From contig VHBP01000017.1 in NCBI GenBank assembly GCA_016871915.1, positions 1 to 43,661 on the forward strand: a DNA stretch of 43,661 bases, written 5' to 3'. Positions 37,841 to 40,350 of this stretch are shown here, piece after piece (within the stretch, counting starts at the first letter, position 1; each line of letters opens with the position of its first letter). Position numbers and translations under genes: made by a program. The notes beneath the pieces are model-generated. The model was not told the origin of the DNA and ran no database searches. It saw only the letters and a list, made by a program, of their open reading frames with translations. This stretch comes from Gemmatimonadota bacterium. Lineage in GTDB: Bacteria; Gemmatimonadota; Gemmatimonadetes; Gemmatimonadales; Gemmatimonadaceae.

Positions 37841-38518
37841 GTGAACTCTTCAGCCATCACCGCAATGCCCGCACCTGGTACTCCCGCGCAGCCCAACGTC
37901 GCGATCGAGCCCGAGACCCTCGGGGAGACCTTCCTGCTGTATCGTCGCCAACTGACCATCGGGGCGGTGGTCATCGCCGCCGCGGTCGGCGGGGTCTGGC
38001 TCTGGCAGCGGTCGGTCCAGATCAAGGAGGAGAAGGGGTCGGTGGCGTATCAGGCCGGGGAGATGGCCTACGTCTCCGGGAACAAGCCGCTGGCGCTGAC
38101 CGAGCTCGAGAAGGTCACCACCCGGTATGCCGGGACGGTGGCCGGCGGGCAGGCGGCGATGCTCAGCGCCCAGATCCTCTTCGATGAGGGGAAGCATGCT
38201 GAGGGGATCGCGCTGCTGCAGAAGGCGCTTGGGTCGGCGAATGGCGACCTGAAGCCTGGGATCCAGGCCCTGCTGGGGGCTGGCTTCGAGGCGACGGGGA
38301 AGTCGGCCGAGGCGGCGGAGGCGTATGGGAAGGCGGCCGAGGGGGCTCGGTTGGAGGGTGAGCGCCAGGGGTACCGGATGGATGCGGCCCGGGCCAAGGT
38401 GGCGGCTGGGGATACCCAGGGGGCGACGGAGCTGTACCGCACGTTGGCCAGCCAGGAGGATTCGCCGTTTTCGGGTGAGGCCCGAGTCCGTCTTGGCGAG
38501 CTGCTCGGCAAGCAGTGA
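37841..38518 (+). CDS. membrane-anchored tetratricopeptide protein (YfgM-like)
   Basis: A 225-residue protein with a short cytoplasmic N-terminus, one membrane helix at about residues 38-57 (GAVVIAAAVGGVWLW) and a periplasmic array of TPR-like helical repeats (about 65-225). This is the layout of YfgM, the ancillary SecYEG translocon subunit, and of related tetratricopeptide-like domains. The start may be GTG 37841 or ATG 37865; neither has a clear ribosome binding site. It is the last + strand gene before the convergence point. YfgM-like function is inferred from layout only. Confidence 0.72.
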   Translation: MNSSAITAMPAPGTPAQPNVAIEPETLGETFLLYRRQLTIGAVVIAAAVGGVWLWQRSVQIKEEKGSVAYQAGEMAYVSGNKPLALTELEKVTTRYAGTVAGGQAAMLSAQILFDEGKHAEGIALLQKALGSANGDLKPGIQALLGAGFEATGKSAEAAEAYGKAAEGARLEGERQGYRMDAARAKVAAGDTQGATELYRTLASQEDSPFSGEARVRLGELLGKQ

Positions 38519-38575: not shown

Positions 38576-38611
38576 CCCAAGTGATTCCATTACTTGGGCT
38601 TATCTTTTTTC
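38576..38611 (+). terminator. intrinsic terminator in the AT-rich island
   Basis: CCCAAGT (38576-38582) and ACTTGGG (38592-38598) form a perfect 7-bp stem around a 9-base loop. CTTATC and six T's (38605-38610) follow. It points in the + direction and probably ends transcription of the TPR gene or of a short RNA from the TATAAT box. Confidence 0.75.
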
Positions 38612-38707: not shown

Positions 38708-38735
38708 ACTACCAATAATATGTATTATGTAAGGT
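38708..38735 (+). other. dif: dif-like XerC/XerD chromosome dimer resolution site
   Basis: The 28 bases split into the dif layout: an 11-base XerC-side arm ACTACCAATAA (38708-38718), a 6-base centre TATGTA (38719-38724) and an 11-base XerD-side arm TTATGTAAGGT (38725-38735). Against the B. subtilis dif sequence, as I remember it, 22 of 28 positions agree; against E. coli dif, 18 of 28. The XerD-side core TTATGT, the most conserved part of dif sites, is identical. XerC and XerD act here to separate dimeric chromosomes at the terminus, with FtsK. The site lies where gene strand switches from + to - and inside an AT-rich island. Xer genes are not in the window. A chance match is unlikely but not excluded. 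Confidence 0.82.
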
Positions 38736-38767
38736 TGTAAGCTGGAAAGGTGTGGAAATCATCGAGT

Positions 38768-39631
38768 TTACCCCGAACCCACGCCTAAGTCGACCAAGGT
38801 CCCCATGAAGACGATCCGCCCCTCCCCGGAGATCGATGGGACCTCCCCCTGAGGGGTCTGCCGGTATCGGATTGTGAGGGTTCGACCTGACCGGGTCCGG
38901 AACCGGGTCTCATCACCGGTCACCCCCCAGGCCCTGAGGACCGCCGCGCAGGTCGTCGCTCCACTCGCACAGGCCAGCGTCTCCCCCTCGACCCCTCGCT
39001 CGAAGGTCCGCATCGCCCAGCCGGCTGGGGTCTGCGCCACCCAGTTCACGTTGGTCCCGCGCTCGAAGCTCGGTTCGTGCCTGAGCACGGGCCCGCGGGC
39101 CGCCACGTCGACCGCGTCCAGATCGTCGACCTCGACCACCAGGTGTGGGACCGTGGGAAACCCGAACCCCATCCGGCGCTCACCGGGGGCCAACGGGATC
39201 CCGACGGAGTGCTCCAGCCGGTCGAAGGGGTTGAGGTCGACCTCCGGCTGCCCATCGGGCCGGAGCCACCCGCGGAGCTCCCCCGCATCGCTCTCGAAGG
39301 TGAACCCCGCGGGATCCGCGATCCCGAGGTGGGTCGCGAGCCGTACCGTGCAGAGGGTGGCGTTCCCGCAGAGATTCGCCTGCGTGCCATCGGCATTGAA
39401 GTAGCGGATCCGGAACGGGTGCACGGGGTCCGGGCGCAGCACCACCACCCCATCGGCCCCGACGCCAAACCGCCGATCACAGGCCGCGGCGATGGCCGCG
39501 GGGTCCATGGCGACCGCCTCAAGCGCGGCATCGGTACGTGCGTCGACGAAGACGAAGTCGTTGCCGGACCCCGTCAGTTTGGTGAACGGGAGGGGCCGGG
39601 TCAGGATCGGCGCGCCTGACTCGGCGCTCAC
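38768..39631 (-). CDS. dapF: diaminopimelate epimerase
   Basis: Converts LL- to meso-diaminopimelate for lysine and peptidoglycan. The protein is about 287 residues from the GTG at 39631, which overlaps the upstream stop as GTGA; GTG codons at 39652 and 39655 are alternatives. FTKLTGSGNDFVFVD near the N-terminus is the family start. The two catalytic cysteines are C88 in NLCGNATLC and C221 in ETLACASGA. The usual GSGA is ASGA here, a mild change. It ends the - strand cluster and lies closest to the dif-like site. lysS and murJ are on the other strand, so no dap pathway operon is seen. Confidence 0.93.
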   Translation of the reverse strand: MSAESGAPILTRPLPFTKLTGSGNDFVFVDARTDAALEAVAMDPAAIAAACDRRFGVGADGVVVLRPDPVHPFRIRYFNADGTQANLCGNATLCTVRLATHLGIADPAGFTFESDAGELRGWLRPDGQPEVDLNPFDRLEHSVGIPLAPGERRMGFGFPTVPHLVVEVDDLDAVDVAARGPVLRHEPSFERGTNVNWVAQTPAGWAMRTFERGVEGETLACASGATTCAAVLRAWGVTGDETRFRTRSGRTLTIRYRQTPQGEVPSISGEGRIVFMGTLVDLGVGSG

Positions 39632-40350
39632 AACCGCCCCGTCAGCGCCCACCACCGGAGCCGCCAGACCATCGTGATCGCCTCACGGACGATGTGGCCG
39701 CTCATCTTGCTCTCCCCCTCGGTCCGATCCGCGAAGACGATCGGGATCTCGACCGGACGGAACCCCTTCTGCATCGCACGGAACGACATCTCGATCTGGA
39801 AGGCGTACCCGTTGGACCGCACCGCATCGAGGTCGATCGCGGCAAGCACCCGCCGGTGAAAGCACTTGAACCCCCCGGTGGCGTCCCAGAGCTGCATCCC
39901 GGTGACGAGCCGCGCATAGATGTTCGCCCCATAACTCAGGAGCAGACGCGTCATCGGCCAGTTCACCACCGTGACCTTGCCGTCGAGATAGCGCGAGCCG
40001 AGCACGAAGTCGGCGCGCTCCGCCGCCCGGAGGAATTCGGGGAGATGAGCCGGGTCATGACTGAAGTCGGCATCCATCTCGAAGATCAGCTCGTAGTCGC
40101 GCGCCAAGGCCCAGCGGAACCCATCCCGATAGGCGGTGCCGAGTCCGAGCTTCCCTGCCCTGCGCAGGAGATGCACGCGCGGCTGACGCGCGGCGATCTC
40201 CGCGATCAGGTCCCCGGTGCCATCGGGCGAGTTGTCGTCGACGAAGAGCATCTCGAGGCGCGGGTCCTGTGCGAGGACGCGCTCGACCAACATCGGGACG
40301 TTCGCCCGTTCGTTGTACGTCGGGGTGATGACGAGCGCGCGGTCAGTCAC
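39628..40350 (-). CDS. polyprenol-phosphate mannosyltransferase (GT2)
   Basis: A 240-residue GT2 glycosyltransferase of the dolichyl-phosphate mannose synthase type, which loads a sugar on a polyprenyl-phosphate carrier. It starts ALVITPTYNERANVPMLV. FVDDNSPDGTGDL and FEMDADFSHDP carry the nucleotide-sugar and metal-binding aspartates. GSRYLDG and a C-terminal RTEGESKMS are also family marks. There are no C-terminal membrane helices, unlike the longer DPM1-GtrA type. The GTG start overlaps the YfhO-like gene stop by 8 bases. The mannose donor is the usual family substrate; another sugar is possible. Confidence 0.9.
   Translation of the reverse strand: MTDRALVITPTYNERANVPMLVERVLAQDPRLEMLFVDDNSPDGTGDLIAEIAARQPRVHLLRRAGKLGLGTAYRDGFRWALARDYELIFEMDADFSHDPAHLPEFLRAAERADFVLGSRYLDGKVTVVNWPMTRLLLSYGANIYARLVTGMQLWDATGGFKCFHRRVLAAIDLDAVRSNGYAFQIEMSFRAMQKGFRPVEIPIVFADRTEGESKMSGHIVREAITMVWRLRWWALTGRL

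Follow-up and report, generated by a model that had tools for sequence, protein, structure and literature searches.

A chromosomal dif site in a Gemmatimonadota bacterium and a DnaA-box-like motif on its XerD side

Background

In the closest described systems, those of Escherichia coli and Bacillus subtilis, the chromosomal recombination site dif is 28 bp long, divides into 11 + 6 + 11 bases, carries TTATGT in its XerD arm and occurs as a single copy at the GC-skew switch, and it is accompanied by XerC, XerD, an FtsK with a gamma domain and polar GGGNAGGG sequences. In E. coli, the FtsK gamma domain contacts the XerD-arm side of dif. To our knowledge, the accepted view is that chromosomal dif requires XerCD and FtsK alone and has no conserved surroundings. 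The locus described here shares all of the features listed for E. coli and B. subtilis and differs in having a fixed pair of DnaA-box-like repeats 3' of dif.

Carnoy and Roten 2009 (PMC2731167) found the sequence outside the 28-mer to be highly variable in Proteobacteria and argued from the 6-bp centre of dif that accessory sequences are unneeded. In ColE1-type plasmid sites an 8-bp centre is tied to accessory proteins (PMC2731167); the site described here is chromosomal, has a 6-bp centre and, judged on the centre alone, does not belong with the accessory sites of the cer/psi type, which combine an 8-bp centre with ArgR/ArcA/PepA sites. What it has in common with plasmid cer and psi is a sequence at a fixed place next to the Xer site, protein-binding in the plasmids and predicted to be so here, but in our case this sequence is DnaA-box-like and lies on the XerD side. 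Within the phylum, a dif site of the same kind was predicted with an iterated HMM in the single Gemmatimonadetes genome then available (Kono et al. 2011, PMC3025954); as far as its accessible text goes, that paper models dif itself and mentions no flanking motif.

Results and discussion

The dif site and its uniqueness

The DNA analyzed (hereafter the window) comprises the 43,661 nucleotides of contig VHBP01000017.1 from a Gemmatimonadota genome of 2.07 Mb, a metagenome-assembled genome (MAG) in 120 contigs. Its forward strand carries the 28-bp sequence ACTACCAATAATATGTATTATGTAAGGT at 38708..38735, for which alignment with known dif sites indicates a presumed XerC arm (ACTACCAATAA, 38708..38718), a central 6 bp (TATGTA, 38719..38724) and a presumed XerD arm (TTATGTAAGGT, 38725..38735) that contains TTATGT. 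A preliminary description of this DNA had divided the 28-mer correctly into 11 + 6 + 11 bases and had named TTATGT as a core shared with dif; the hexamer is indeed shared, but the centre is TATGTA, and TTATGT belongs to the XerD arm, of which it is the inner portion. The same description's count of 22/28 identities with B. subtilis dif was reproduced, and 18/28 positions are identical to E. coli dif. The runner-up match to B. subtilis dif within the window (17/28) comes from the complementary strand of this very site, and the best match elsewhere in the window reaches 16/28. Given the base composition of the window, a 22/28 match is expected by chance 1e-6 times per window and 6e-5 times per genome. 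Allowing three mismatches or fewer, the 2.07 Mb genome contains one copy, as a genuine dif had been predicted to do, and a reversed control pattern gave no match at the same threshold in the same genome.

Matches to the dif pattern were found in 99 of 148 genomes of the family, nearly always as exactly one copy, compared with two matches in total for the reversed control pattern across the same 148 genomes, and most of the genomes outside this first pattern have diverged sites, e.g. ATAAGATATGTTATGTTAA. In the alignment of sites from the order of the window genome, taken to be Gemmatimonadales, the outer half of the XerC arm is the most variable part of dif. The TTATGT of the XerD arm is invariant among the collected sites, an invariance partly built in by a collecting pattern that demanded TTATGT, and conservation over the whole 28 bp is likewise partly set by the search pattern. 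Positions 25 and 26, which the pattern left free, are nevertheless A in 97% and 94% of sites, respectively. The preliminary remark that dif sites are not commonly annotated in this lineage is fair, yet one had been predicted earlier (Kono et al. 2011, PMC3025954). Taken alone, the present site is a further example and not a new kind of site.

Gene neighbourhood and recombination partners

The site lies between two convergent genes, a TPR-domain protein gene (37841..38518, + strand) and dapF, encoding diaminopimelate epimerase (38768..39655, - strand, stop codon at 38768; above the TIGR00652 cut-off), so that its placement between the last + strand gene and the last - strand gene, as noted at the outset, holds. 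Both neighbours are conserved, the TPR gene and dapF flanking dif in about 60/64 loci of the order, and the gene order surE, pcm, (...), TPR, dif, dapF, GT2 is kept across the family. Near-identical 28-mers occupy this same locus in related genomes, which was one of the checks that had been proposed. A hairpin resembling an intrinsic terminator, with a T-rich tail, is found 3' of the TPR gene on the + strand (38576..38608).

A profile search of the genome identified two tyrosine recombinases (PF00589) and one FtsK, the latter with alpha, motor and gamma domains. One recombinase scores above the NCBIfam cut-off for XerD; for the other, XerC is the best-fitting model, with a score just under the NCBIfam XerC cut-off (326 vs 335 bits). 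With this proviso for XerC, all three partner genes that one would look for are present. By reading of the translation, xerC is followed by an HslV-like frame; xerC likewise precedes hslV in some other bacteria. By analogy with the known family, from which the recombination reaction at this dif is inferred, XerC would occupy the left arm and XerD the right one. Polar GGGNAGGG-like sequences would guide FtsK, which would bring both dif copies of a chromosome dimer together at the septum and, through its gamma domain, would activate XerD to start resolution.

Position at the replication terminus

The cumulative GC skew of the window reaches its maximum at 38755, 34 bp from the centre of dif. The geometry of origin and terminus was taken from relatives because the window genome is a 120-contig MAG. 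In relative G012 (one contig of 3,257,781 bp, dnaA at 355) dif lies at ~1,606,142, i.e. 49.3% from dnaA; in G005 it is 1.50 Mb from dnaA in a contig of 3,136,119 bp (47.9%) and in G032 2.56 Mb from dnaA in a contig of 5,311,527 bp (48.1%). Measured on stretches of these genomes, the local cumulative skew maximum is 34 bp (G012), 39 bp (G005) and 13 kb (G032) from dif, and in 10-kb bins the sign of the skew flips at dif in G012 and G005. The chromosome-wide skew of G012 is weak and irregular, which makes the sharp switch local to the terminus region. KOPS-like GGGNAGGG sequences point predominantly toward dif, with toward:away counts of 27:3, 30:2 and 23:2 for the three relatives and of 12:3 for the window. 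The early proposal that the window spans the replication terminus is thus borne out by a dif that sits at the window's own skew switch and, in closed or near-closed relatives, opposite dnaA.

In other phyla, integrating elements that use Xer recombinases exploit dif-like sequences, and the 28-mer might by the same token be an attachment site of such an element, or its relic, and not a working dif. This is scarcely credible here, where a single copy is found in conserved synteny, at the skew switch and in antipodal position, where the genome has only two Xer-type tyrosine recombinases, and where the terminus of G012 offers no second, better dif candidate. Alignment, copy number, a skew switch opposite oriC, partner genes and polar guide sequences all agree with dif, and the sequence at 38708-38735 is almost certainly the chromosomal dif site that marks the replication terminus. 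Such sites fix the terminus exactly, both in this MAG and in many Gemmatimonadota genomes that lack the annotation.

A companion motif on the XerD side of dif

Almost all dif sites of the order have a second motif on their XerD side, with the consensus GTGGATAACTGTGG(A/G)NAA, which the column profile resolves into two 9-mers at a 10-bp period. In the window the first, degenerate repeat is CTGGAAAGG (38742..38750, + strand; order consensus GTGGATAAC), 10 bp before the second, TGTGGAAAT (38751..38759, + strand; reverse complement ATTTCCACA), whose start lies 16 bp beyond dif. Across the order the last box of this companion begins 16 or 17 bp past dif, and the GTGG of the second 9-mer falls at +15 to +18 in 59/64 sites (58 at +17 or +18, one at +15). 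The companion is present at 37/40 sites of families f2 and f3; the samples of 64 and 40 sites partly overlap and consist of related, non-independent genomes, spanning tens of genera. It was found at none of 30 dif sites from other orders of the same class, and there was no box at one Gracilibacillus dif or at E. coli dif. The flank upstream of the same dif sites served as a matched control and, at the same distance, is random with no such signal. A chance match as the source of the box was rejected on the evidence of this upstream flank together with the 30 sites of other orders, all of them devoid of it.

Since dapF converges on dif in 60/64 loci and some genera have GTGGAGAA...TTCTCCAC inverted repeats at this place, the companion might be read as belonging to dapF, as its transcription terminator or an RNA element, with no connection to dif. 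Its distance to dif, however, is 17.4 +/- 0.5 bp and fixed within 1 bp, as against 29-919 bp to dapF, and it is this fixed spacing on one side and variable spacing on the other that assigns the companion to dif. Folding of the flank does not exceed that of the upstream control (mean z -0.9 vs -1.3), and the flank has no Rfam match, so that a dapF element is largely refuted and very unlikely. A role as terminator of the TPR gene was also rejected, as that terminator stands apart, at 38576.

The boxes are polar and near dif, and could be leading-strand-polar guide motifs for FtsK that adjoin dif by chance. On the XerD side, however, their orientation is away from dif, opposite to that of GGGNAGGG, which points toward it, and they are rare, with no build-up over the flanking 100-200 kb; we consider such a guide function most improbable. 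That the box keeps its helical position in tens of genera implies that a protein docked next to XerD is under selection.

Likeness to DnaA boxes

Read on the opposite strand, TGTGG(A/G)NA(A/T) is a 9-mer of the DnaA-box type, and the consensus at dif, TTNYCCACA, is that of the 9-mers upstream of dnaA and conforms to the DnaA-box sequence TT(A/T)TNCACA or a lineage variant of it. In 8/8 genomes examined, dnaA is preceded by the degenerate 9-mer, as a rule in two copies spaced by about 38 bp, and within the surrounding 10-14 kb of these eight genomes the 9-mer is nearly confined to that position; the window's own TGTGGAAAT is also found upstream of dnaA in G012 and G005. Its background is 0.2-0.3 per 10 kb (76 copies in the 3.26 Mb of G012), and the full tandem without mismatch occurs only at dif in G029, G062 and G087. 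By the E. coli rule, the TTTCCCACA variants of one genus and the window's degenerate first box are poor DnaA boxes. The DnaA boxes of oriC, datA and DARS are likewise TTNTCCACA-type 9-mers; those described here are arranged in tandem at a 10-bp period and, in contrast, lie at the terminus beside dif and not at an origin or titration locus.

In most of the genomes examined, the region upstream of dnaA (L045 and L136-L143) has a pair of box-like 9-mers at this spacing of about 38 bp and no larger box cluster within 10-14 kb of dnaA. The oriC architecture of the phylum looks sparse on this sequence evidence.

From this likeness, DnaA itself probably binds the companion. Through its domain IV it would bind GTGGATAACTGTGGACAA beside dif. 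Either DnaA or some other protein with its specificity would sit roughly one or two turns of the helix past the XerD arm, on the side where FtsK gamma makes contact in E. coli, and may there modulate dif synapsis, the activation of XerD or the arrival of FtsK. The companion would then perhaps couple dimer resolution to the DnaA cycle. If the binder is DnaA, the initiation of the chromosome and its final resolution share one regulator.

Another candidate is an accessory protein of dif, specific to the order, that would recognise TGTGGANAA and order the synapse in the manner of ArgR/PepA at plasmid cer. The phase-locking of the box to dif and its limitation to one order would suit such a protein, as would variants such as TGTGGGAAA, which are atypical DnaA boxes. 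The degenerate 9-mer upstream of dnaA in 8/8 genomes speaks against it, in that a second protein with the same range would be a coincidence, and we hold an accessory protein to be rather unlikely. Returning to DnaA, we tentatively propose, at somewhat less than even confidence, that in one order dif is composite, with DnaA binding a phase-locked pair of boxes by XerD and helping to control dimer resolution or the end of replication. A search of titles and abstracts, confined largely to open-access journal papers, turned up no such arrangement of DnaA boxes beside dif, and the composite of dif and companion is, as far as could be seen, a new form of such a site.

A 631-aa protein with two tandem DnaA-type AAA+ domains and no evident domain IV is encoded in G012 (L160:1568-3463; G012:C1 about 1,400,068-1,401,963), and similar proteins occur in G005, G003 and G091; in G012 and G005 the gene is about 205 kb from dif. 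It was rejected as binder of the companion, having no match in the window genome and, by eye, seemingly no DNA-binding domain.

Variants of the dif flank

The second box is imperfect or absent in G012, G005, L036, L123, L125 and L126, and it is therefore not strictly required. At two dif sites from other orders of the class (L154 and L158; two genera, one other family), a TTTTCCACA 9-mer lies 18-20 bp upstream of dif, on the XerC side, and is possibly a mirror-image version of the companion box or else a chance occurrence. In the congeners G012 and G005, dif ends in TTATGTAT in place of TTATGTAA and the second box is lost; their flanks retain GGGGA(T/A)AAC at +7, followed at a greater distance by GATTTCC(C)CAC in reversed orientation. 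From these two flanks, the XerD arm and the companion box may co-vary. In genus g37 (L118-L122), the repeats 3' of dif extend for about 60 bp through further copies, CGTGGAAATC and TGTGGGAA.
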